Shown: positions 13,375 through 50,188 of the stretch, one piece after another
Position numbering within the stretch: position 1 is the first letter of the stretch
Layout of the letters: each line of letters begins with the position of its first letter
Assembly (NCBI RefSeq): GCF_019059575.1
Contig: NW_024883394.1
Location: forward strand, 1-64,000
Direction of reading: 5' to 3'
Length of the DNA: 64,000 bases
Source of the DNA: Amphibalanus amphitrite
Lineage: Eukaryota > Arthropoda > Thecostraca > Balanomorpha > Balanidae
Program-made: the position numbers and the translations under genes
Notes under the pieces: model-generated
Databases searched by the model: none
What the model was told of the DNA's origin: nothing
Seen by the model: the letters and a program-made list of their open reading frames with translations, nothing else

Positions 13375-16269
13375 TTACACAATGTCAAATAGTCTGTCGT
13401 GCAAGTGCAGATGGAGCATTTCCTTGAACTTTGCTAGGTTTGGGGCTGAGACAGCCTCCAGAGGCAGAGCATTCCAAGCAGGCATGCATCGCACTGAGAA
13501 GAAACGCTTCCTAGTATCAGTCCTGGTGAAAACGGGAAATATTTTGTGTGTGTGTCCTCGTGTTCGTGTTTGCGGAGGTCGACTAAACACATCAATGGGC
13601 TCTATACAGGATTTTCCATTAAATATCTTCCAGCAGTGGATTAAGTCTGAGCGAAGGAGCCTGCCCTGTACTGAATACAAGTTAAGTGACCGTAATCTGT
13701 CAGAGTAGCTCTTGTTAGCAAGCCCATCAACTCGTTTAGTCCACCTACGCTGTACATTCTCTAGAAGACGCAAGTCTTCGATATAGCCCATGTTCCAGAT
13801 ACACGAACAGTATTCCATCAAGGGTCGAATGTGTGTGGTTAAAAGAAACATCATGAAGTCAGGCGAGCGACAGACCGTAGATTTTAGCAAGCTCTGGGCA
13901 AGGCCACCTGCCTTCTGAACAATTGTGTGTACATGTTCGTGAAATCTCAGGCGACAGTCAACAGTCACACCAAGATCAACATGACTCTTAGAGAAAGGGA
14001 TTTGCTGGCCATCAAGGAAGTATCCCGGTAGGTCTATGTTAGGACTAGAGCCATTAAACCTTAAAGCAACACACTTCTTTGAGTTCATCTTTAGTCCCCA
14101 TGATGCTGCCGTTGAGTGTAGAGTGTCAATGTCTTTCTGGATCTGCTGTGTAGCAAGGGATGGAGAGGAGGAGGTTGGATCATAGGGCACACAGGCATAA
14201 AGTTTAATGTCATCAGCGAATATTTTATAGTCACTTTCCAGTTGGGAGGCAACACTATTCACATACACAAGGAACAAGAGGGGTCCCAGAACACTTCCCT
14301 GAGGTACACCACTACTAACTGCACAGGGTTTGCTGAGACAGTCCTTCACACAGACCTGCATCAACCTACCCTGTAGGAAGGAGGATAACCAGTCAAGCAG
14401 ACAGCCCTGCAGTCCCAGTGATCGCAGTTTTACGAGCATGATCTCATGGTTAACTACATCAAAGGCCTTGCTAAAGTCAAAAAATATTATATCTACGACA
14501 CGTCTAGCATCCACCATCTTTGAGACTGTGTTATACACTAATAATAGTTGGTCCATTGTTGACCTGCCTGGTCTGAAACCGAATTGGTTGCTAGTTAGTA
14601 GGAAGTTAGTTTCAAGGTAGTTTCTAAGTTTAGTACATATCAAGCGTTCCATAGTCTTACAGACAACCGAGGTCAGGCTGATAGGCCGATAGTTTAGGGG
14701 GTCATATCTGTGGCCCTTTTTAAAGATAGGTTTTACAATAGACATTTTCCAGAGAGCTGGCAGCTTCCCTTCCTGCAGGGATTTCTGAAAGATCAAGTGC
14801 AAGGGATATGCCACCTCAGCAGCACAAGACTTCAGCACCAGTGGATGCAATCTGTCGGGCCCCATGGCAGAATGGGGGTCAAGCATCATCAGTGCCGATA
14901 GGACATCGTCCGTTGAGATATCAACACTGTTAAGCGTACCATTGAACATCTGATGGGGAGCAGGGTTCCTTGGACTGTTAGGAGAGTAAACAGAAACAAA
15001 CGATGAGGCGAACATTTCAGACATGGTTTGGGCATCGTCGCTCATTTCACCAGTCTTCAGCATTAAGGGGCCAACTGCTGGACAGCCAACCTTCTTAGAC
15101 CTTACATAAGAATGGAGAAGTTTTGGGTTTTGTCTGGACCTGTCAATTAAGTTTCTTTCATACTGGCATTGTGAAGTTACAGTGAACATTCTTAACTCTT
15201 TGTTAATTGAAGCAAAGGCACCATACGCCTCCACGGAAGCATGGGCTTTCCTTCCCAGTTTCTGTCTAACAACCTTATAGTTATTCCATGCTCTCTGGCG
15301 GCGGTGTATAAGGCTCGTCGGTGGTCTAGTCTGGAACTGCGGCCGGGTCATCAGACGTGGAGGTTGTTCTGGCACAAACTCGTTAGTCAGATCTGCAATG
15401 ACTCGTACAAAGTGGACAAAACACTCATCACAATCCCGGTAGGCAAACTCGCAGTCCCAGTCCGTATCTTTCAGCAGCTGGCGCATCAAGGCAAAGCGAC
15501 CCCTGCTCCAGGCTCTCCTGTAAGGTGGGGGGTGAGAGACAGTTAAGATGTCATCTGCCTCGAACACATAATCACATACAGCTAGGCAGTGGTCGCAACC
15601 TGGCAAGGGAGGGCATATCTCGATGTGTCCAAGACGATCAGGTTCCGTAGTTAATACCAGATCCAAGATGTTTCCAGACCTGGGAAAGGTAGGTTCATCA
15701 ATCCACTGGGTTAGACCGAGTAGGTTGAAGAGGTTGAGAAAATTGCGTTCCACTGTTGCACAACTGGAAGGGGCATCAGCACTTTTCCAATCCAGGTTCG
15801 GCAGGTTAAAATCGCCCAGTACTATCACCTCCTTGTCAGCACAGAAATCTGACAAATATGACAGCAGTGAGTTATTTTCATCTTCATTGTTTGAAGGAGG
15901 CCTGTAGACCACTGCAACAAACACACTGAAATTTGAGAGGCAAAATGTTATGATGTTAGGAAGCGGCCTGTTGACATTGGTTACAGCTAGTTTGTTGTGC
16001 ACATACACACAGACTCCATGCTTGAATACATTGCCACATACATCATTTCTGTGAAGAGTAAATCCTGGGATCTGAACAAAGGAATCAGCTATATGATTTA
16101 AAAGGTGGGATTCGGTAATGCACAGAATATCAAGCATTCTCTGGTCGCTGAACTCAGTGAGTTGCTTGACCTTCGAAGGAAGTCCATTAACATTGGCCAA
16201 GGCTATTCTTAAAACTGTGGATGTAGGCAGTGGATGTAGGGTACCTATGTCTGGACGAGGGTTTGTTGG
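13375..16269 (-). CDS. LINE ORF2 polyprotein (endonuclease-reverse transcriptase), CR1/Jockey-like
   Basis: An open frame of about 960 codons encodes the enzyme that nicks target DNA and copies element RNA. From about residue 1 (counting from 16200) there is an apurinic-type endonuclease: CITESHL, then LGDFNLPNLDW near 127, and PGCDHCLAV near 203 carrying the catalytic Asp-His. A reverse transcriptase follows, with NYRPISLTSV, FGFRPGRST, GVPQGSVLGPLLF and the catalytic FADD near residue 660. The C-terminal thumb-like block (LLENVQRRWTKRVDGL) is typical of CR1/L2/Jockey-group elements. There is no RNase H. The frame is open upstream to a stop at 16270-16272 but has no ATG there, so the 5' end is probably truncated. 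There are no internal stops or frameshifts, which suggests a recent insertion. Confidence 0.92.
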   Translation of the reverse strand, partial: PTNPRPDIGTLHPLPTSTVLRIALANVNGLPSKVKQLTEFSDQRMLDILCITESHLLNHIADSFVQIPGFTLHRNDVCGNVFKHGVCVYVHNKLAVTNVNRPLPNIITFCLSNFSVFVAVVYRPPSNNEDENNSLLSYLSDFCADKEVIVLGDFNLPNLDWKSADAPSSCATVERNFLNLFNLLGLTQWIDEPTFPRSGNILDLVLTTEPDRLGHIEICPPLPGCDHCLAVCDYVFEADDILTVSHPPPYRRAWSRGRFALMRQLLKDTDWDCEFAYRDCDECFVHFVRVIADLTNEFVPEQPPRLMTRPQFQTRPPTSLIHRRQRAWNNYKVVRQKLGRKAHASVEAYGAFASINKELRMFTVTSQCQYERNLIDRSRQNPKLLHSYVRSKKVGCPAVGPLMLKTGEMSDDAQTMSEMFASSFVSVYSPNSPRNPAPHQMFNGTLNSVDISTDDVLSALMMLDPHSAMGPDRLHPLVLKSCAAEVAYPLHLIFQKSLQEGKLPALWKMSIVKPIFKKGHRYDPLNYRPISLTSVVCKTMERLICTKLRNYLETNFLLTSNQFGFRPGRSTMDQLLLVYNTVSKMVDARRVVDIIFFDFSKAFDVVNHEIMLVKLRSLGLQGCLLDWLSSFLQGRLMQVCVKDCLSKPCAVSSGVPQGSVLGPLLFLVYVNSVASQLESDYKIFADDIKLYACVPYDPTSSSPSLATQQIQKDIDTLHSTAASWGLKMNSKKCVALRFNGSSPNIDLPGYFLDGQQIPFSKSHVDLGVTVDCRLRFHEHVHTIVQKAGGLAQSLLKSTVCRSPDFMMFLLTTHIRPLMEYCSCIWNMGYIEDLRLLENVQRRWTKRVDGLANKSYSDRLRSLNLYSVQGRLLRSDLIHCWKIFNGKSCIEPIDVFSRPPQTRTRGHTHKIFPVFTRTDTRKRFFSVRCMPAWNALPLEAVSAPNLAKFKEMLHLHLHDRLFDIV

Positions 16270-21143: not shown

Positions 21144-21871
21144 CTAATTTGATGGCGAGTAGGGAAGGGTAAAATCCAGGGTCAATCTACGTGCGAGCAA
21201 ATCTTCGCAGTTTCTGTTTGCAACGGACCGGTAATTCATAAACTAAAGATAGCAAAAACTCTAGCTTAGATTTGCCTAATTGCTGAGTTCACTGAAACTG
21301 GCACATGTGTAGCCTCTACAAAAGCTAAGAATAATGTTTGAAGTTTAATGCCGAAAAATTGTTCCGATACCGAACGTACATTTTTTAACACCAATGGTCT
21401 GAAACTGAGCAGTAATCGCCACGTAATTTGGATTGTGGACCAATCTTAAATGTACAATACAATATTTATAGGATTGCATTGCATCAAAAATAAAAGGCAC
21501 TATTTATACTCACTGAATTCCACCGTTTATAGATAATGTCGTGAAATTTCGAAAATCAAGCGCGCCTTTTCCAAAAAGTGGTTGAAGCTCTTATATAGAG
21601 TCCCCTTTCCCAAGTCTGCCTCGTTAAGAAAATTGTATTTTGATATTTGCGATTTACTATGTGTCTTCTCCGACACGAAAAGAAGATCCACTAAATGAAA
21701 GAGGGTGACTGATTTTCGCATGCTGCTTTGTTCAAATGCGATAGGTAATTAATTTCGTTGATGATGGTGCTATAGGTGATCGATTTTGCCAGTGAAACAT
21801 TTTTGTTAATATTTATTTATTCACTATGTAAATGTTAGTAATATTTATTTCAATTTTACCTGCATTTGAAG
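21144..21871. other. Upstream region of the pseudo-astacin gene
   Basis: No gene is seen. The sequence becomes AT-rich towards the start codon. A TATA-like word (TTATATAG) occurs at about 21591, but promoter use cannot be shown from sequence alone. Confidence 0.35.
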
Positions 21872-24800
21872 ATGATCACACATACCGTGAAAGCGTTATT
21901 GTTGATTTCATTTTTACCCCAAACCAGTGAATCAAAAAATCTAGCTGAAAATGCTCCCGACATATTGTTCGATGAAAACAAAGTACTTCTGTACTTTTTT
22001 GACTCCGAATTTCCCATTCCGACACAGAAAAGGCTGATGGTCAAAAAGTTTCTTGAAGATATCGGAAAGAAATCGTGCTTGCAATTCAAAGAAATAGACG
22101 CCTACAACAGCAAATGCAGAACTGTTCAAGCCAAGCCAACTCTGTGCATAAGCGGCGTAGATCACAGTAGTAAGTCAGACAGACACGGATATGGTTGTGA
22201 AATTCGTTGGCCAAGTGGTCCGAATGGCAAATATGGCAGATGGCTTCCATATACGTACAAGCCCGGCGAGTTTCTGGGATGTTCCTGGCCGGCATCTATG
22301 ATGTATTTATACTTCATGATGGGGTATGACCCTCCTGTTTATAGACCTGACAGGGACGGGTATATAAGCATCAACCCGTTTGAAATATGGACCATGGATA
22401 AAATGACCTCTTCATCGAAATATGCCTGTGGACTTCAAAGTGTAACAGGACGAAAGGAAACTGAAGAAGATTTTGAAAGTCATAAAGTATTGGACAAAGC
22501 GTCTGGAGAGAAAAAGCTCCCATTTTATACCTTTAAATCTGTGTTTCACACTGGAACCGCTGGTGACTCCTTGCCCCGTGAGCCAAAGCCAGTTTATGTT
22601 ACTAAATTTACGATATGGCAGCCATGGCTAGATGCATCGAAATACACAAAGAATTATGAGGCTCGCTACACTCATCACGACGAAGCTATACTTGGCTGGC
22701 GGCAGAAATGTGACATTCAAGAAAGAAACGCCTGTGGTGTTGAGTCGACTACATATGAAAGATTTGATCATTGGAGCTCTTGTCCGTCAAACGGATTCAT
22801 GAGAGGCTGCAAGTGCGTTTGTTCAAGTTATTCGATGCAAGAAATGACGTGCACAAGTTATGACCTTGTGGGTGGTGGCGAAAAGGTGGTGAAAGATGAC
22901 GACTACAATCCCACAGAGGAGCCAGGCAGGCATATGCCTAGAATGTCTGTTTATACTTATGATCAGCTCGATGCTTTTGGGCGCACAGTATCCTTGGAAG
23001 AAGAAATTCAGAAATTCAATGATGATCGCGATGATGCTGAGATTGTGGTAGCCGGATACAAATATTCAAGGCAGCAGGTATTTGGAGATGAATGGGCATA
23101 CCGGTTCATCTTATTATTGTTGAAGGGCAACACGCCATGTTCTCGCCCTGTTCTACAAATAGACGGACGTGAATATCTCAAAACAGGAGCCGGCCAAACT
23201 TTGGGAGATGACAAATACGAAAAATTTATCGTGATGCGTGGATTTGACTGCTTTGGCCTGGTTACCGGCTTCTTTGATCAGAACGGAGATCCATTCTATG
23301 AGGCCGATTGGGACGGAACCACTAAAGACACCATGTTCAGGAGAAGGCTTTATTGTTATTCTTCACTGTATTTGGAAGAAACGGAACTCCGCGCCAAAAC
23401 CCAAAGAGCTAGCTTGTATTTGCAGTATAACTGGGTGCTGGACGCCGAACACCTCGTGCCAAAGGGTCCCTTCAACTTGAAGATGACCGTTTTGGGCAGT
23501 GATGACCCATGGTGCGGACTGACAAATTATTGTTCGCCATTTTTCGGCACGGATAAGACCTACGAGCGTGAGTATTGCAGAACTCACCTTCCCCCGCCTA
23601 CGACAACCAAGGCGCCCACCACCACGGCTAAACCGACAACGACCACCACCACCACAACAACGACGACCACATCTCCGACCACCACCACCTCCGAGAAGAC
23701 GACCACCAAATCCACTACTAAGAAGTCGACCACAAAGTCTACAACCACAACCACGACGACGACAACGACAACAACGCCTACAACTACTACTACTACAACG
23801 ACGACGACGACGACCACAACCCCCAAGCCCACCACCACCACCACAACAACTACTACGACCACTACGACAGTGAAGTCGTTGCCGCCCTTGACACGGTCAA
23901 CTAGATTTACACGCAATCCCAATGCTACCCGCACTGCTCCAAGTGATAAAACAGCAGTTTTTCCTCCGGTTGTTACTGTCGAAATGAAACCACCTGAAAC
24001 AACACTTTCAACCCCATTCACCACCTCTCCAACTACCACAAGAGCGCCAACAACCACCACTACCCATCCTACCTCCCCCACAACAACATTCGCCCCGCCG
24101 CAATGGTCGACAACCACTAAGGCGCCAACGACAACGACCACGAAGAGAACGACACCAACAACGACCTCCACAACGACAACAACGACCACAACAACACCCA
24201 GCACTACAACCCTCCCGCCGCGTGTACCTTTTACCACCATGTTTGCGGGAGATCATTTTACAATATTCTCGACAAGAGAGACATCCACCGCGCCGCCAAC
24301 GACTACAAGAAAGACAACAACGACCACAACGACTACAACAACCACAACGACTACGACTGCATCGACAACGACAGCTGCTGCTGCTGAAACTGCCAAGTCA
24401 ACGACAACAGAGGCAGCCACGGTGCCGACACAGGCCCCGACAGTTAGTCCGACGACCATATACGATTATGATTGCTACTTCGACCTGCATATATACATAG
24501 CAACTTGCATACGCATACCAAGACAACCACCAGGATGGTCAACGAAATTCCCAATACCAAGACCTGGAATAGAGCTTCCTTTCTTTGACAAAGTCACCAA
24601 GCCAACAACTCAAAGTACGAAATCAACTCGCTTCCCTACTCCTCCTCCGACGAAGCCGACGAAAAAGGTGACAAAAACTTTGGCTACGGACCTCGGGCCG
24701 TACACGCGTCCCACGGGAACAATCCCCACTGATGGAACAAGACCGACAAATAGAATGGGTAAAACAAGAGGAACAAGAAAGCCGACGCCGGCCACGGAGC

Positions 24801-25870
24801 CGACAGATACCGGTGACGACACCCACGGTGGAGAACACACCACAGAAGGAGACGGCAATGTGCCGGGCCCCTTACCGGGAGGAGGCACTGACGACACTCA
24901 AACCACTAAATCTGACGGAAGTGAGCCTGGACCGGGCCAGCCGGGCGGCGGCTCCACCGGGCCACCTGGCGGAGGAGGCACAGACACCGGCGGTGGTACC
25001 ACAAAGGGAGGTGATGGCACCGCCACAGGCGGCCCAGGCGGCACAGGCGGCCCAGGCGGCACAGGCGACAAAGGCGATGGCACGACAGGAGGCACTGGTG
25101 GCGGTGGCGTCGGCGGCGGTCTTGGAGGAACAACAACGTCAACCACAGAGTCCATCATTGGCGCTGGCGTGGGTGACCCTGGCAAGGCTGTCAAGAGTGA
25201 AGGCAAAGGTGGAGCTGGTCCGCTGGTCGCCGGCATTCTTGTGCCGCTTCTTCTGCTCCTCTGCATTCTCATCATCTGTCTAGTGATGAAGAAGAAGAAG
25301 AAAGAGCCTGGAGAAGGAGACGAAGAGGGTGAAGACGGTGAAGATGGAGAAGGAATGGGCGCCGATGGAATGGGTGGCATGGGCGGCGGAGCTGGCGGAA
25401 TGGGCGGCATGGGCGGCGCAGGAGGAATGGGAGGAATGGGCGGCGGAGCAGGAGGAATGGGCGGCGGAGCTGGCGGAATGGGTGGCATGGGCGGCGGAGC
25501 CGGAGGAATGGGCGGCATGGGCGGCGGAGCCGGTGGAATGGGCGGCGGAGCCGGAGGAATGGGAGGCGGAGCCGGTGGAATGGGTGGAATGGCTGGCGGA
25601 GCTGGTGGAATGGCCGGTGGAGCCGGCGGAATGGCTGGTGGAGCTGGCGGAATGGCAGGTGGAGCCGGCGGAATGGGCGGCGGAGCCGGAGGAGCCGGAG
25701 GAGCGGGCGGATCAGGTGCCGGAGGAGGAAAGGGCGGAGGAAAGGGCTTCCGCTTTGGAAAGAAGAAAGGAAAGGACGGTGGAGCCGATGATATCGATCT
25801 CTTTGGAGGTGCGATTGGACCTGGTGAACAAGATGCTCCAGAAATGTTCCTACCGGGAGCATCGGGCTAA
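21872..25870 (+). CDS. Mucin-like transmembrane protein with zinc-less astacin-type domain
   Basis: A single uninterrupted frame of 1,332 codons. I start at ATG 21872 (A at -3), which gives a signal peptide (VKALLLISFLPQTSES). Residues ~35-175 follow the astacin metallopeptidase pattern: SCLQF, a Gly-Cys pair, LGC at 135-137, then RPDRDGYISI at 158-167. Where the zinc site HExxHxxGxxH should lie there is only YLYFMMGYDPP; just the Gly is kept. The domain is therefore predicted inactive. A Cys-rich segment follows (~280-335), then an unrecognised region to ~570, a Thr-rich stalk likely O-glycosylated (~574-860), a Gly/Pro/Thr-rich stretch, one membrane span (~1117-1139) stopped by five Lys, an acidic patch, and ~130 residues of GMGG/GGAGG repeats with a basic end. 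Role unknown; surface, mucous or structural function is inference. Confidence 0.8.
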   Translation: MITHTVKALLLISFLPQTSESKNLAENAPDILFDENKVLLYFFDSEFPIPTQKRLMVKKFLEDIGKKSCLQFKEIDAYNSKCRTVQAKPTLCISGVDHSSKSDRHGYGCEIRWPSGPNGKYGRWLPYTYKPGEFLGCSWPASMMYLYFMMGYDPPVYRPDRDGYISINPFEIWTMDKMTSSSKYACGLQSVTGRKETEEDFESHKVLDKASGEKKLPFYTFKSVFHTGTAGDSLPREPKPVYVTKFTIWQPWLDASKYTKNYEARYTHHDEAILGWRQKCDIQERNACGVESTTYERFDHWSSCPSNGFMRGCKCVCSSYSMQEMTCTSYDLVGGGEKVVKDDDYNPTEEPGRHMPRMSVYTYDQLDAFGRTVSLEEEIQKFNDDRDDAEIVVAGYKYSRQQVFGDEWAYRFILLLLKGNTPCSRPVLQIDGREYLKTGAGQTLGDDKYEKFIVMRGFDCFGLVTGFFDQNGDPFYEADWDGTTKDTMFRRRLYCYSSLYLEETELRAKTQRASLYLQYNWVLDAEHLVPKGPFNLKMTVLGSDDPWCGLTNYCSPFFGTDKTYEREYCRTHLPPPTTTKAPTTTAKPTTTTTTTTTTTTSPTTTTSEKTTTKSTTKKSTTKSTTTTTTTTTTTTPTTTTTTTTTTTTTTPKPTTTTTTTTTTTTTVKSLPPLTRSTRFTRNPNATRTAPSDKTAVFPPVVTVEMKPPETTLSTPFTTSPTTTRAPTTTTTHPTSPTTTFAPPQWSTTTKAPTTTTTKRTTPTTTSTTTTTTTTTPSTTTLPPRVPFTTMFAGDHFTIFSTRETSTAPPTTTRKTTTTTTTTTTTTTTTASTTTAAAAETAKSTTTEAATVPTQAPTVSPTTIYDYDCYFDLHIYIATCIRIPRQPPGWSTKFPIPRPGIELPFFDKVTKPTTQSTKSTRFPTPPPTKPTKKVTKTLATDLGPYTRPTGTIPTDGTRPTNRMGKTRGTRKPTPATEPTDTGDDTHGGEHTTEGDGNVPGPLPGGGTDDTQTTKSDGSEPGPGQPGGGSTGPPGGGGTDTGGGTTKGGDGTATGGPGGTGGPGGTGDKGDGTTGGTGGGGVGGGLGGTTTSTTESIIGAGVGDPGKAVKSEGKGGAGPLVAGILVPLLLLLCILIICLVMKKKKKEPGEGDEEGEDGEDGEGMGADGMGGMGGGAGGMGGMGGAGGMGGMGGGAGGMGGGAGGMGGMGGGAGGMGGMGGGAGGMGGGAGGMGGGAGGMGGMAGGAGGMAGGAGGMAGGAGGMAGGAGGMGGGAGGAGGAGGSGAGGGKGGGKGFRFGKKKGKDGGADDIDLFGGAIGPGEQDAPEMFLPGASG

Positions 25871-32615: not shown

Positions 32616-34654
32616 ATGGCTGAAGCCAAGGTGGTGGTAATCGGCGCCGGTGTGATCGGCGTTGGAGCAGCGCTGGCCATTCAGCGTGAACTGCCTCGAG
32701 CGACCGTTACCATAGTAACCGCTCAGCTGACCCCATTCACAACGGGAGATGGCGCCGCCGGCATTTGGGGACCTCACTACGTCAGTGGTGACCCGATAAA
32801 GGTCAGGTCAAGTACCGAGCGAATATGATGACACCGCGAGACACCCCCAAGACGTCACAGGCTGGGACATAAATCTTAGGACCATGTTAAATGTATTTTT
32901 TAATTTTTGTTTTAACGGCTGATGTTGGGTTGGCTATTAGAATAACAATACGTTCATTTATTATTTCTTTCCTAAATGCAATAATTTTAATGGACCGTTA
33001 CGGGAAGCAGAAGATATCAATTTTTCACAAATTATTCTTATGATAACTTCTAGCAAAACGACGGTAACAACGAACTTATTGCTACAGCTTCTAATCCGTA
33101 ATAAAAATTGACGGTCATCGGCCACGGGTCAGGCCTTTTCCTAAGGTCACATTTCATATCTGATCTGTCGAAATGAAATATATTTGAACTGTTTTAAAGA
33201 GAGAAATAGCGACATCTATGAGAATCCAGGACATGCATATAATTACATAATAGCCGTTTTCACGACGGCCATCTGGTACACATTTGGTGCACATCTGGTA
33301 CAGATTAGGTGCAGATTTGGTCAAATCAGGTTCAGTGTGTCTCTTAGCAGCTATCAGCTATCAGCTAGGGTTGCACTAAATGCTTATATGCCTGCTTTGT
33401 CATATTATCAGAGAGCATCATCGATCAAAACACTGAAATAAATTCATAAAATGAAGATATTTGGTGTAAAAGAAATTAGGTGCAGATTTGGTCAAATCAG
33501 GTGCATTCGCCGGATAGCCCGTCGTGAAAACGGCCATTATGTATGTACCTATCAAAGTTATATAAAACAAGCAATATTCCAACAAAGGAGCTATTTGTCA
33601 ATAGGCTACATCGTTCTAACGTAAAATGCTTATTGTTATTATCAAACAACAGCATCTTTCGATCATCGAGGTATATAATACTGAAGCGTTTCACTGGTTG
33701 CAGATCAGGGACTGGAGTCAGGCGACACACGACTTCCTGCAGCGTCTCTGGATGGAAGGTGAGTGTCCAGGAATCGGTCTAATCGCTGGCCACGACCACC
33801 CCGAGAAGGCTCCCCACACCACAGTGCCCTTCTATCACGAGGATGCACCAGCCTCTGGGGACGCCTCAGCGCCAGAAGAAGGGAAGATGGGGTTGTCAGG
33901 GTCTGATGCGCGGTTTGAGTCATCGTCGGATGACAAGAGGATGTCAGAATCTTCACAATCGGGTAAACTCTCTTCAGAGACACCTGTCTCAGGTAAAGAT
34001 AAGATTCATCCAGAGCTAAGATCTACTCCTTACGAAGGGAAACTAAGTCAGCAGGTCACCTTCTACGCGGAACCATCCAAGTTTCTCCCATTCCTGCTAG
34101 CTGCCTTCAAATATCACGGAGGCAACGTCATCGTTGCCAATGTGACGTCACTCCAACAGCTGGCAGAGTATGACGTCATTATCAACTGCACCGGGCTAGG
34201 ATCTGAGACTCTATTCGGTGACACCACACTCCAACCCATCCGAGGACAATTGGTGCGCGTGAAGGCACCATACGTCAAAAGCTTCCTCGCTAGAAACGGT
34301 TTTTACATCGTTCCGAACGAAGACGCGGTTGTTTTAGGCGGTACAGCGCAGCTGAATGACCGACGCACGGAGCCGGACGTTGCAGACACAGCAAGAATCG
34401 TTTCAGGCTGTTCGAAATTGATTCCCGCCCTACGTGGGGCCCCGATTGTGGGTGTATGGGCTGGGCTGAGGCCGTTCAGGCCCGGAGGGGTCCGCCTGGA
34501 GTCGGAGCGACATCTGGTGGGCGGTAGGTGGCGCTGGGTGGTGCACAACTACGGCCATGGTGGATCGGGTGTTACGCTGTTTTGGGGCTGTGCGTTAGAG
34601 GTGGCAGCGAAGGTCCGTCAGATTTTGGAGAACGCCACAGCCAGCAAGTTGTAG
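32616..34654 (+). CDS. D-amino-acid / D-aspartate oxidase, peroxisomal
   Basis: FAD-dependent flavoenzyme that oxidatively deaminates D-amino acids. Coding exons are 32616-32801 and 33704-34654, joined in phase 0 (...GDPIK then IRDWSQ...), giving 378 aa. The dinucleotide-binding loop GAGVIG is at residues 10-15, FTTGDGAAGIW follows, and the family signature HNYGHGGSG is at about 343-351. The Arg of GLRPFRP matches the substrate-carboxylate Arg, and the Tyr of GFYIVP the active-site Tyr. The C-terminus SKL is a canonical peroxisomal signal. It is about 30 aa longer than the usual ~340-350, because the segment after the first third is replaced by a Ser/Lys/Glu-rich insert (about residues 108-170) that could hide a short intron. 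D-Ala versus D-Asp preference cannot be decided. It is convergent with the ABHD10-like gene to the right. Confidence 0.9.
33244..33543. mobile_element. MITE in the oxidase intron
   Basis: A 300-bp element whose ends are imperfect inverted repeats (GCCGTTTTCACGACGG and its complement, extended by TACATAAT/ATTATGTA). Inside are two copies of GGTGCAGATTTGGTCAAATC. It sits within the single coding-region intron of the oxidase gene. Confidence 0.65.
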
Positions 34655-43300: not shown

Positions 43301-43604
43301 ATATTGCACCGGGACCGGACCCGTGTCGGGCAAATTTAGCCATTTTCGCCCGTTTTTGCCAGCCGATTTATACATGTAAAGTCTATGACGCGAATTTGCA
43401 CTTTTTGGGCACGCGCCACGCGCTCGCTATCGATCCGATCGAGCCGAGACCGCTCAAAGGCACGTTGTCCATCCTTGTTCTATGAGTTGCGCAAATTTCA
43501 GCGCGGTAGGTGCAACGGTGTGACCTGTAACCCGCGCTACGTAGCACCATGTCGCGACCTTCGTAATAGACAGAAACTACGCCCTCCTCAAATAGTAATA
43601 TAGA
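40348..43604. other. No recognisable gene between ABHD10-A and the satellite array
   Basis: AT-rich sequence with a poly-C run at about 40742-40758. From about 43140 to 43600 the sequence has the same kind of 3' architecture as the satellite units that follow (CGCGCCACGCGC, GAGCCGAGACC, GCAAATTTCA), so it may be a diverged extra unit. The divergent ABHD10 promoters should lie in the outer parts of this 14-kb interval, but I cannot define them. Confidence 0.4.
41346..41465. repeat. Imperfect inverted repeat (~35-bp arms)
   Basis: AGGCTGAAATAAATGAATAT... and a near-complement ending in ATTCATTTTAGGCT face one another across about 50 bp. It could be a small foldback element. No coding content. 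Confidence 0.6.
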
Positions 43605-46600
43605 CAAGCGGCTGCGCCACTTGCTTTGCTGCGTGGTAGGAAAAATTGCGGCACCAGCCAATTTGCTTTCGAATGGTGTTTGATTCATGTCGATGTGTCG
43701 TCTAGAAGCATAGATATGGACGGAAATGTGAAGAGAATTAAAAAAACTGTTCTGAGGGGGTTGTTGGATGAAATTTGGGTGATACGGGGTCAAGACGGGT
43801 CAAAGGGGTCAGCCCCGGTCACTTTGGGTCAGGCCAGGTCACATAGGTCACCTCTCGTCCGCTGGGATCAGCCCGGGCCACTGTTCTGCTTTTGTCTCCA
43901 CCACTACCCCTACCCCTACCACTACCCCTACCACTACCCTACCCCTACCCCTACCACTACCCCTACCCCTACCCCTACCCCTACCACTACTCCTACCCAT
44001 ACTCCTACCCCTACCACTACCCTACCCCTACCCCTACCACTACTCCTACCCATACTCCTACCCCTACCACTACCCTACCACTACCCCTACTACTACCCCT
44101 ACCACTACCCATACCACTACCCCTACCCCTACCCCTACCCCTACCACTACTCCTACCCATACTCCTCCCCTACCACTACCCTACCACTACCCCTACTACT
44201 ACCCATGTCCCCTACTACTACCCCTACCACTACCCCTACCCCTACTACTACTCCTACCACTACCCCTACCCCTACCCCTACCACGACCCTACCCCTACCA
44301 CTACCGATACCACTACCCATACCACTACCCCTACCCCTACCCAACACCGCTGGGTCATGCCAGGTCACAGAATAATTGGATCCAATCAGTACTAAAATAT
44401 TAGACTTAGAGTGTTCCCAGCCCTGCCCCTATTCGTGCCATTCCATTACGCTTATTCGTATTTGTCGGAAATGGCGCTTTGTGGCATATGTGGCGCATTG
44501 CGACAAACGCGGCGCATTTTCACCCGGCGATTGAGCATGCACCTTGGCACCAAATTGCACCCACATCGGACCATATTTAACAAAACTGTTCGATTTGCGG
44601 CAAAAATGACGCCCTGAGATAATTGTGGCGCATTGCGGCAAACGCGGTGAATTTGTAAAATCGTATCACAAACTGGTCCCATCGAACGAAAATCAACACA
44701 TTCTCTCGCCACTATTTATTCAAATTAATAACTTGCCGATCCGCCAATGCGAGGCACCCGCCGCCGATCGGCATGCATTTAGTCCACAAAGTTTGTCGAC
44801 CCCAGCTCTCAATGAAGATCTACGAACCGATCAAAATTTCATTGGCGATCTTCCAGCGCGCCCCACGCGCGAACCGTGCACCCCAGCGAGCCGAAACCTA
44901 GAAAAGGCGCTGACCCGTTCTGTCACCTATAAGGTGTGCAAATTTCAACCCCCTACGATATACCGTCTGCCCTGTAGGCCGGCTAAATTGAACCCACTAC
45001 ACGGCGTGGCGGACAGACAGACAGACAGATGGATCCTGTTGAAATAGTAAGATAGACAAGCGGCTGCGCCACTTGCTTTGCTGCGTGGTAGGAAAAAATT
45101 GCGGCACCAGCCAATTTGCTTTCGAATGGTGTTTGATTCATGTCGATGTGTCGTCTAGAAGCATAGATATGGACGGAAATGTGAAGAGAATTTAAAAAAG
45201 AACTGTTCTGAGGGCGTTGTTGGATGAAATTTGGGTGATACGGGGTCAAGACGGGTCAAAGGGGTCAGCCCCGGTCACTTTGGGTCAGGCCAGGTCACAT
45301 AGGTCACCTCTCGTTCGCTGGGATCAGCCCGGGCCACTGTTCTGCTTTTACCTCCACCACTACCCCTACCCCTACCACTACCCCTACCCCTACCCCTACC
45401 ACTACCCCTACCACTACCACTACCCCTACCACTACCCCTACCACTACCCCTACCACTACCCCTACCCCTACCACTACCCCTACCCCTACCCCTACACCTA
45501 CCACTACATCTACCCCTACCCCTACCACTACTACTACCCATACTACTCCCCTACCCCTACCCTAACCCCTACCACTACCCCTACTTCTACCCCTACCCCT
45601 ACCACTACATCTACCACAGCACTACCCCTACCACTACCTCTACCACTACCACTACCACTACCACTACCCCTACCCCTACCCCTACCACTACCCCTACCCC
45701 TACTACTACTACTATTTCCACTACCCCTACCCCTACCCCTACCCCTACCCCTACCCCTACCACTACACTACCCCTACCAATACCCCTACCACTACCCCTA
45801 CCCCTACCAACACCGCTGGGTCATGTCAGGTCACAGAATAATTGGATCCAATCAGTACTAAAATATCAGACTTGAAGTGTTCCCAGCCCTGCCCCTATTC
45901 GTGCCATTCCATTACGTTTAATCGTATTTGTCGGAAATGACGCCTTGTGGCATTTGTGGCGCATTGCGGCAAATGTGGCACATCTGTACTTGTTGGTTGA
46001 GCATGCATCCTGGCACCAAGTTGTACCCTTATTGCAGCATATTAGATAAAGTTGTGCAATTTGCGGCAAAAATGACGCCTTGTGACCAATGTGACGCATT
46101 GCGGCAAACGCGGTGCGTTTTTATACTTGTATCACAAACTATTCCCATTGAACGAAAATCAACACATGCTCTCGCCACTTTTTATTCAAATTAAAAACCT
46201 GCCCATCCGCCAATGCGAGGCACCCGCCACCGATCGGCATGCATTTAGCTCACAAAGTTTGTCGACCCCGGCTCTCAATGAAGATCTACGAACCGATCAA
46301 AATTTCATTGGTGTACTTCCAGCGCGCCCCACGCGCGAACCGTGCACCCCAGCGAGCCGAAACCTAGAAAAGGCGCTGACCCGCTCTGTCACCTAGAAGG
46401 TGTGCAACTTTCAACCCCCTACGATATACCGTCTGCCCTGTAGGCCGGCTAAATTGAACCCACTACACGGCGTGGCGGACAGACAGACTTACAGACAGAT
46501 GGATCCTGTTTAAATAGTAATATAGACAAGCGGCTGCGCCACTTGCTTTGCTGCGTGGTAGGAAAAATTGCGGCACCAGCCAATTTGCTTTCGAATGGTG

Positions 46601-49600
46601 TTTGATTCATGTCGATGTGTCGTCTAGAAGCATAGATATGGACGGAAATGTGAAGAGAATTTAAAAAAGAACTGTTCTGAGGGCGTTGTTGGATGAAATT
46701 TGGGTGATACGGGGTCAATACGGGTCAAAGGGGTCAGCCCCGGTCACTTTGGGTCAGGCCAGGTCACATAGGTCACCTCTCGTCCGCTGGGATCAGCCCG
46801 GGCCACTGTTCTGCTTTTGTCTCCACCACTACCCTTTCCCCTACCACTACCCCTACCACTACCCCTACCCTACCACTACCCCTACCCCTACCCCTACCAC
46901 TAACCCTACCACTACCCCTACCCCTACCCCTACCCCTACCCCTACCCCTACCCCTACCACTACATCTACCCCTACCACTACTACTACCCATACTCCTACC
47001 CCTACCACTACCCCTACCCCTACTACTACTCCTACCACTACCCCTACCCCTACTAACACCGCTGGGTCATGTCAGGTCACAGAATAATTCGTGCCATTCC
47101 ATTGCCCTTACTCGATTTTGTCGGAAATGGCGCTTTGTGGCAAATGTGGCGCATTGCGGCAAATGCGGCGCATCTGTACCTGTTGTTTGAGCATGCACCC
47201 TTGCACCAAATTGTACCCTTATCGGGCCATATTTGACAAAACTGTGCGAGCTGCGGCAAAAATGGCGCCCTGTGACCAATGTGACGCATTGCGGCAAACG
47301 CGGTTCATTTGCATTTCATTTGTACAATCTTATCACAAACTGTACCCATTTAGCAACAATCAACACATTTTTTCGCCACCATTTATCAAAATCAATAATT
47401 TCACCCTCCTTCAATGCGAGGCACTCGCCACCGATCGGCATGCATTTAGTCCTCAAAGTTCTTCGACCCCGGCTCTCAATGAAGATCTACGAACCGATCA
47501 AAATTTCATTGGCGTTCTTCCAGCGCGCCCCACGCGCGAACCGTGCACCCCAGCGAGCCGAAACCTAGAAAAGGCGCTGACCCGCTCTGTCACCTAGAAG
47601 GTGTGCAAATTTCAACCCCCTACGATATACCGTCTGCCCTGTAGGCCGGCTAAATTGAACCCACTACACGGCGTGGCGGACAGACAGACTTACAGACAGA
47701 TGGATCCTGTTTAAATAGTAATATAGACAAGCGGCTGCGCCACTTGCTTTGCTGCGTGGTAGGAAAAATTGCGGCACCAGCCAATTTGCTTTCGAATGGT
47801 GTTTGATTCATGTCGATGTGTCGTCTAGAAGCATAGATATGGACGGAAATGTGAAGAGAATTTAAAAAAGAACTGTTCTGAGGGCGTTGTTGGATGAAAT
47901 TTGGGTGATACGGGGTCAATACGGGTCAAAGGGGTCAGCCCCGGTCACTTTGGGTCAGGCCAGGTCACATAGGTCACCTCTCGTCCGCTGGGATCAGCCC
48001 GGGCCACTGTTCTGCTTTTGTCTCCACCACTACCCTTTCCCCTACCACTACCCCTACCACTACCCCTACCCTACCACTACCCCTACCCCTACCCCTACCA
48101 CTAACCCTACCACTACCCCTACCCCTACCCCTACCCCTACCCCTACCCCTACCCCTACCACTACATCTACCCCTACCACTACTACTACCCATACTCCTAC
48201 CCCTACCACTACCCCTACCCCTACTACTACTCCTACCACTACCCCTACCCCTACTAACACCGCTGGGTCATGTCAGGTCACAGAATAATTCGTGCCATTC
48301 CATTGCCCTTACTCGATTTTGTCGGAAATGGCGCTTTGTGGCAAATGTGGCGCATTGCGGCAAATGCGGCGCATCTGTACCTGTTGTTTGAGCATGCACC
48401 CTTGCACCAAATTGTACCCTTATCGGGCCATATTTGACAAAACTGTGCGAGCTGCGGCAAAAATGGCGCCCTGTGACCAATGTGACGCATTGCGGCAAAC
48501 GCGGTTCATTTGCATTTCATTTGTACAATCTTATCACAAACTGTACCCATTTAGCAACAATCAACACATTTTTTCGCCACCATTTATCAAAATCAATAAT
48601 TTCACCCTCCTTCAATGCGAGGCACTCGCCACCGATCGGCATGCATTTAGTCCTCAAAGTTCTTCGACCCCGGCTCTCAATGAAGATCTACGAACCGATC
48701 AAAATTTCATTGGCGTTCTTCCAGCGCGCCCCACGCGCGAACCGTGCACCCCAGCGAGCCGAAACCTAGAAAAGGCGCTGACCCGCTCTGTCACCTAGAA
48801 GGTGTGCAAATTTCAACCCCCTACGATATACCGTCTGCCCTGTAGGCCGGCTAAATTGAACCCACTACACGGCGTGGCGGACAAACAGACAGACAGACAG
48901 ATGGATCCTGTTCAAATAGTAAGATAGACAAGCGGCTGCGCCACTTGCTTTGCTGCGTGGTAGGAAAAAATTGCGGCACCAGCCAATTTGCTTTCGAATG
49001 GTGTTCGATTTAAATCAATGTGTCGTCTAGAAGCATTGATACGGACGGAAATGTGAAGAGAATTTAAGAAAGAATTGTTCTGAGGGCGTTGTTGTATGAA
49101 ATTTGGGTGATACGGGGTCAAAGGGGTCATCCCCGGTCACTTTGGGTCAGGCCAGGTCACATAGGTCACCTCTCGTCCGCTGGGATCAGCCCGGGCCACT
49201 GTTCTGCTTTTGCCTCCACCACTGCCCCTACCCCTACCACTACCCCTACCCCTACCCCTACCACTACTACTACCCCTACTACTACCCCTACTACTACCCC
49301 TACCACTACTACTACACATACTCATACCCCTACCCCTACCACTACCCCTATCCCTACCCCTACTACTACTCCTACCACTACCCCTACCCCTACCACTACC
49401 CCTACCCCTACCACTACCCCTACCCCTACCTCCTACCACTACCACTACCCCTACCACTACCACTACCTACCACTGGGTCATGTCAGGTCACAGAATTGGA
49501 TCCGGCAATAAGTATTTTTAAAAATCAGGCTTAAAAAAGTTTCTAGCCCTGCTCCTATTCGTGCCATTCCATTACGCTTAACCTTATAGGTCGGAAATGG

Positions 49601-50188
49601 CGCATTGTGACAAATGTGGCGCATTGCGGTAAATGCGGCGCATCTGTACCTGTTGGCTGAATATGCATCCTGGCACCAAATTACACCCATATCGGACTAT
49701 ATTTGACAAAACTGTGCGATTTGCGGCAAAAAATGACGCCTTGGGACAGATGTGGCGCATTGCGGCAAACGCGGTGCATTTTTATACGTGTATCACAAAC
49801 TGTTTCCATTGAACGAAAATCAACACATATTTTCGCCACCATTTATCAAAATCAATTTCACCATCCGCCAATGCGAGGCACCCGCCACCGATCGGCATGC
49901 ATTTAGTTTACAAAGTTTGTCGACCCCAGCTCTCAATGAAGATCTACGAACCGATCAAAATTTCATTGGCGATCTTCCAGCGCGCCCCACGCGCGAACCG
50001 TGCACCCCAGCGAGCCGAAACCTAGAAAAGGCGCTGACCCGTTCTGTCACCTATAAGGTGTGCAAATTTCAACCCCCTGCGCCGTACCGTCTGCCCTGTA
50101 GGCCGGCTAAATTGAACCCACTACACGGCGTGGCGGACAGACAAACAAACAAACAAACAGATGGATCCTGTTCAAATAGTAGTATAGA
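43605..50188 (+). repeat. Five-unit satellite array with C-rich minisatellite cores
   Basis: Units begin with CAAGCGGCTGCGCCACTTGC at 43605, 45057, 46527, 47728 and 48929. Each unit holds, in order, a unique-looking head, a GGGTCAGGCCAGGTCACATA block, a CCCTAC/CCACTA core, a GTGGCGCATTGCGGCAAA block, a GAACCGATCAAAATTTCATT block, and an ACAG microsatellite followed by ATGGATCCTGTT. The cores (about 43901-44343, 45353-45810, 46825-47055, 48026-48256, 49217-49470) account for the length differences. The apparent long Pro/Thr/Tyr/His frames in the cores are repeat translations. Origin may be a non-autonomous element amplified head to tail; the class is unknown. Confidence 0.85.
46527..48928 (+). 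repeat. Essentially identical 1,201-bp tandem duplication
   Basis: Units 3 (46527-47727) and 4 (47728-48928) are offset by exactly 1,201 bp. They look identical for at least the first ~1.15 kb, including every base of the C-rich core, and differ only near the ACAG tail. The other units differ at many positions. Confidence 0.85.

Follow-up and report, generated by a model that had tools for sequence, protein, structure and literature searches.

A predicted zinc-less membrane astacin with a mucin-like stalk in Amphibalanus amphitrite

The window analysed here is a stretch of 64,000 nucleotides from Amphibalanus amphitrite (NCBI RefSeq assembly GCF_019059575.1, contig NW_024883394.1, positions 1 to 64,000), in which positions 21872–25870 of the plus strand form a single open frame of 1332 codons with an ATG start and no internal stop; an in-frame stop lies just before position 21842, shortly ahead of the ATG at 21872. 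The predicted protein consists, in order, of a signal peptide, an astacin-like domain, an EGF-like module, a domain termed X, a Thr-rich stalk, a transmembrane (TM) span and a Gly/Met-rich inner tail. We consider it fairly probable that this gene (the window gene) encodes a divergent, non-catalytic membrane astacin in which the head, carried on a mucin stalk, now serves for binding. An initial annotation, made from the sequence alone, had proposed a zinc-less astacin domain in a membrane mucin with a likely non-catalytic role, and our sequence analysis supports these predictions.

Translation of the frame recovered the framework motifs cited in the initial annotation, SCLQF (C69), LGC (C137) and RPDRDGYISI (R158 on), and the family alignment described below bore out its claim that the zinc site HExxHxxGxxH is lost save for the glycine, G151 being the sole match. 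In the alignment to the family, H92, E93, H96, H102 and E103 correspond to M144, Y145, F148, P154 and P155, respectively, and G99 is kept as G151; the motif of an active enzyme, with its general base Glu, is accordingly absent from the window gene (M144 Y145 F148 G151 P154). The SIMHY Met-turn, with its Met and Tyr, is absent as well, SVFHT standing here in a register less sure than that of the zinc site. Only about 10 residues separate the signal peptide from the astacin domain, too short a space for a prodomain bearing a zinc-binding Asp; two related frames, L053 and L054, have LLGD and LFGD, respectively, ahead of the astacin domain, which we take to be the astacin latency motif. The loss of all zinc ligands, the general base, the Met-turn and the prodomain argues against proteolysis, and we infer that the head would be non-catalytic. 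That an intact site comes from an exon or frame farther upstream, the case named in the initial annotation as speaking against its reading, is unlikely: a single open frame, closely preceded by a stop, contains the signal peptide, the degenerate site and RPDRD, and HExxHxxGxxH occurs in none of the six frames of the 64-kb window. The equivalent of astacin C64 is perhaps C109; an assignment to C92 was dropped, as C92 aligns with an extra cysteine of the family (as in AICVG).

Comparison of residues 22–200 with our own astacin profiles, one made from six animal astacins and the other from these plus seven bacterial astacins, gave 12.0 and 13.5 bits, respectively, against best scores of 10.0 and 8.6 among 2000 shuffles each. 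Searches of PDB sequences with the window protein returned no astacin match, PHROGs and NCBIfam gave no match, and weak Pfam matches to CLSTN_C (E=0.03–0.15) and DUF3377 (E=0.076) were set aside as far below their cut-offs. No relatives were found in viral and prokaryote contigs; this negative says little, because a crayfish astacin query likewise matched nothing in the same search, even though astacins are present in bacteria (20 plasmid records).

Table 1 Predicted features of the window gene (positions in the window)
Feature	Positions	Strand	Residues	Basis
Signal peptide, MITHTVKALLLISFLPQTSES	21872..21934	+	~1–21	Translation and upstream in-frame stop; cleavage site by eye
Zinc-less astacin domain	21953..22714	+	28–281	PF01400 below cut-off; family profile without the window gene
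Degenerate zinc site, MYLYFMMGYDP for HExxHxxGxxH, Gly alone retained	22301..22333	+	144–154	Family alignment
RPDRD motif past the zinc site, retained	22343..22357	+		Family alignment
Degenerate Met-turn, SVFHT for SIMHY	22538..22552	+	223–227	Alignment; weak alone, -1.1 bits
EGF-like module	22733..22852	+	C288, C304, C313, C315, C317, C327	12-sequence alignment, all six cysteines invariant
X domain, common to the family	22889..23527	+	340–552	Profile of sisters without the window gene
Thr-rich mucin-like stalk that becomes Gly-rich next to the membrane	23597..25225	+	576–1118	Composition
Single TM span, then KKKKK	25226..25288	+	1119–1139	Hydropathy 3.25
Predicted inner tail: basic, acidic, GGM/GGA repeats, lysine-rich and acidic cap	25289..25867	+		Composition; comparison of copies

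A six-frame search of the same genome (807,550,619 bases in 2644 contigs) with the Pfam Astacin profile revealed 97 matches, many of them in single long open frames and many equal-scoring as if paired; the window gene itself was absent from this search at E<=1. Twenty stretches were read, mostly near weaker matches in long frames and picked partly for low Pfam scores, and 11 related open frames, a lower bound on the size of the family, were found to share one layout (L038, L039, L040, L042, L043, L050, L052, L053, L054, L055 and L056). This layout of astacin, EGF-like module, X domain, linker, TM span and mostly charged inner tail is collinear with the window gene. No clear signal peptide opens L039, L040 or L042, which therefore probably have a further exon upstream. 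L051, a partial relative of L050, and six loci with other layouts (L041, L044, L045, L046, L049 and L057) were left out of the set, and L047 and L048 contained no astacin frame longer than 200 residues.

All 10 of the 11 sisters that were scanned passed the Pfam Astacin cut-off (26.7–111.8 bits). A profile of the 11 sisters, built without the window gene, matched the window ectodomain at 42.6 bits and its astacin part at 33.2 bits, with maxima of 4.8 and 5.9, respectively, among 1000 shuffles; the domain limits for these scores were drawn from an alignment that included the window gene, which leans slightly in its favour. The 12-sequence alignment has 16 invariant columns, including C69, G151, R158, D160, D270, C280 and the six EGF cysteines. 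At the level of sequence, the link of the window gene to astacins through the genome's own family is clear, and the gene is predicted to be an extreme member of a membrane astacin family, not a one-off.

Other astacin frames of the genome differ in layout. The zinc sites of L041, L044 and L045 are damaged; all three have a TM span, followed in L041 by a Ser-rich inner tail of 311 residues. L046 and L049 carry HLLGHVLGLPH (Glu to Leu) without a strong TM span. The best-scoring astacins of the genome (L008–L036) each lie in one open frame that shows no strong TM span past the head; several end in what we take, by motif, to be ShKT-like repeats, and others have presumed EGF-like and CUB-like parts.

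What the initial annotation had called an unknown region of about 230 residues turned out to be the remainder of the astacin domain (up to C280), the EGF-like module (C288–C327) and the X domain, which is shared with the family. The EGF-like part of the window gene, matched alone to the sister profile, scored 3.5 bits, not above chance (maximum of 1000 shuffles, 7.5), and it is counted by its place in the collinear match. In the sisters, too, the Pfam EGF models matched below their cut-offs, so the label "EGF-like" refers to the six-cysteine pattern. The X domain, of about 200 residues, matched the family profile built without the window gene at 9.3 bits (maximum of 1000 shuffles, 6.2), and it had no match among PDB sequences and no credible one in Pfam, where stray weak matches alone appeared. 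Astacin-EGF-CUB proteins occur among nematode astacins, and in this genome L018–L025, L035 and L036 have the same kind of six-cysteine module after the astacin domain (for example, PPCRNGGYVSADCVCHCPPGTSGSAC versus PKCKNFGYLTKDCTCKCPTGYTGSTC), followed by a stretch that we take to be CUB-like by motif, where the window gene has X. That X is a diverged CUB domain, as expected from its place after the EGF module, found no support: hhalign against 7 CUB-like sequences scored 13.8, and 6 of 50 column shuffles scored higher, so the profile comparison lent no support to kinship.

Analysis of the zinc site across the family revealed HExxHxxGxxH intact in four of the 11 sisters (L052, L053, L054 and L056), a fraction that is no rate because the loci were picked partly for low Pfam scores. 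The other seven have lost one or more zinc-site residues: L038, L039, L040 and L043 keep the Gly alone, the first His-Glu remains in L042, the first two His in L050 and the second His in L055. Six further loci, seen as 301-base pieces of 585–677-codon frames, have the motif intact, with the layout past the head lying outside the pieces. In a 21-row tree without the window gene, the state "lost" needed 4 changes, of which well-supported branches force at least 2; L050, which has lost the site, groups with the intact L053 and L054, and the sisters with lost sites do not form one group. A 17-row tree including the window gene needed 3 changes, with well-supported branches forcing only 1. The zinc site was thus probably lost in at least two separate events in the family; loss followed by regain, which also counts two changes, is implausible.

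The presence of zinc-bearing sisters also bears on a different role, in which the window protein would regulate the active membrane astacins by pairing or competing with them. The four fully read sisters keep the motif in the same architecture, the six further loci have it in the pieces read, and inactive peptidase homologues are known to regulate active cousins (PMC11266112). However, the window head is only 15–21% identical to any aligned sister, and pairing by way of a common surface is less likely for that reason; we regard such a regulator as improbable.

The stalk and tail agree with the initial description of a Thr-rich stalk, one TM span and a Gly/Met repeat tail, as composition and hydropathy confirmed. 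Stalk residues 576–1115 contain 202 Thr in 540 positions, encoded by ACA (72), ACC (54), ACG (45) and ACT (31); the use of all four codons indicates that the stalk is not a plain triplet expansion. This composition and codon use fit a membrane mucin, and the stalk would presumably be O-glycosylated. The inner tail contains 102 Gly and 21 Met in 193 residues. A hydrophobic span (2.48–3.25) was found in the C-terminal half, the sole part scanned, of the window gene and all 11 sisters. Past the TM span, 10 of the 11 sisters have a charged segment of 29–214 residues; the exception, L050, has 16 residues there and an acidic stretch ahead of the span. The 120 residues ahead of the TM span contain only 5–13 Thr in the sisters. 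The domain order, which the initial annotation knew from no described protein, is therefore not unique between astacin domain and TM span, given the 11 related frames in the same genome, whereas the Thr stalk of more than 500 residues and the GGM/GGA repeats are the window gene's own additions among the frames read.

A second copy of the window gene lies at C1026:70866-72518 in the same genome, with an identical ectodomain protein and 97.5% identical DNA. Comparison of the two copies revealed 9 silent and 0 replacement differences in the ectodomain (chance of none, ~6e-7 at equal rates per site), 8 and 0 in the tail (~2e-5), 1 and 0 in the TM span, and 26 and 17 in the stalk, where 12 of the 17 fall in residues 791–798; the signal peptide has 0 silent and 3 replacement differences. 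Judged by these counts, the protein looks to be under constraint, and the tight constraint on the head argues that the head still does something. This bears on a further explanation, in which the protein is a structural surface mucin that works through its stalk, as a glycocalyx for protection or lubrication, and whose head is a folded cap without a partner. The stalk is indeed the largest part of the protein and maintains its Thr through all four codons; the head, however, is tighter than a mere cap would need (0 replacement differences against 9 silent, compared with 17 against 26 in the stalk), and this explanation seems rather unlikely. The copies also differ in a short cluster within the stalk, at window positions 24223–24265, which includes eight adjacent bases.

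Several observations weigh against a non-catalytic membrane astacin with a binding head. In the Pfam Astacin check named beforehand in the initial annotation, PF01400 matched residues 24–200 alone at E=4e-4, but the score of 20.5 bits is below the curated cut-off of 22.5 and the match spans residues 38–99 only; for the whole protein E was 0.047. The window gene shares only 15–21% identity with the sisters in the 12-sequence alignment, and it sits on a very long branch of the 17-row tree (3.37 changes per column), which leaves its position within the family uncertain. Two runs of single-sequence AlphaFold2, without an alignment, both reached a predicted local distance difference test score (pLDDT) of 31 and gave no usable model, and the assignment of an astacin fold thus rests on sequence. 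When the juxtamembrane, TM and early tail regions of the window gene were compared with block shuffles of each sister, the numbers of shuffles that did as well, out of 500, were 0 for L039, 1 each for L040 and L055, 5 for L042, 31 for L053, 32 for L038, 177 for L054, 268 for L052, 326 for L050, 357 for L056 and 450 for L043; the likeness to L039, L040 and L055 is better than that of shuffles and speaks for the family membership, and in five of the 11 sisters the likeness of the TM region is not beyond that of shuffles. Lastly, coding indels of 3, 3, 9 and 21 bases between the copies are accompanied by a 2-base deletion in the C1026 copy, which shifts the frame in the stalk and leaves a 915-codon open stretch; one of the copies may therefore be expendable, or its assembly may be in error. 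This frameshift, together with the lost catalytic residues of the head and the replacement differences in the signal peptide, would suit a decaying gene whose copies are heading to pseudogenes; the absence of replacement differences from head, TM span and tail, and the sizes of the other indels, make decay highly improbable.

Among described systems, inactive ADAMs are, by analogy, the nearest parallel to the window gene. A 2024 review of inactive metallopeptidases gives motifs for the inactive M12 ADAMs (ADAM2, 7, 11, 18, 22, 23, 29, 32 and unc-71), single-span membrane metzincin relatives in which zinc-site residues are missing and whose action is believed to depend on protein contacts; in the part consulted, pseudo-peptidases are well described among ADAMs and "astacin" appears once, in a list of metzincins (PMC11266112). 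ADAMs belong to another metzincin branch and have disintegrin domains without a mucin stalk or Gly/Met tail, whereas the window head is putatively astacin. Cell-surface mucins share with the window gene a long Thr/Pro-rich stalk, a single TM span and an inner tail; the membrane mucins known so far have SEA or EGF modules, in contrast to the astacin head here. Meprins are active enzymes with MAM and TRAF domains. Meprin beta resembles the window gene as a membrane-bound astacin with an EGF-like hinge (PMC9848320), and differs from it in that the window gene has the X domain and a long Thr stalk and no zinc site. The same astacin review mentions meprins bound to the membrane as well as helminth astacins to which numerous domains have been added, and the words "inactive" and "mucin" do not occur in its main text (PMC9848320). 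At the level of titles and abstract openings, often a small share of the literature found, no inactive membrane astacin was met, which is no proof of absence from print.

Elsewhere in the window, a long open frame at 13375–16269 on the minus strand encodes a long interspersed nuclear element (LINE) reverse transcriptase with endonuclease, and an exon resembling D-amino-acid or D-aspartate oxidase (DAO, E=5.6e-28) lies at 33623–34651 on the plus strand. Positions 43588–50188 hold an array of long direct repeats, ~86–94% alike, with simple repeats that would translate into runs of PT or YP.

If the window gene is a non-catalytic membrane astacin, its head would retain the astacin fold and bind a partner without cutting it, the stalk of about 540 residues would be O-glycosylated and hold the head well off the membrane (on the order of 100 nm, at the spacing usual for mucins), and the low-complexity inner tail may cluster the protein. 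Cell-surface recognition or adhesion is the most likely role, and likelier than regulation of the active sisters because of the low identity to them; a use in mucus, cuticle or an adhesive, suggested in the initial annotation, would be a candidate setting. A wider picture, which we hold tentatively, is of an animal lineage with a membrane-tethered astacin family whose zinc site disappeared on several occasions, turning proteases into surface binding proteins; the window gene would be its extreme, having discarded the prodomain, kept its head under tight constraint and grown a mucin stalk and a Gly/Met-rich tail. If this is true, astacins, like ADAMs, would have given rise to cell-surface receptors or adhesins that are non-catalytic, and the zinc-bearing and zinc-less sisters in one genome would offer a test bed for what the astacin head does once cutting is removed.

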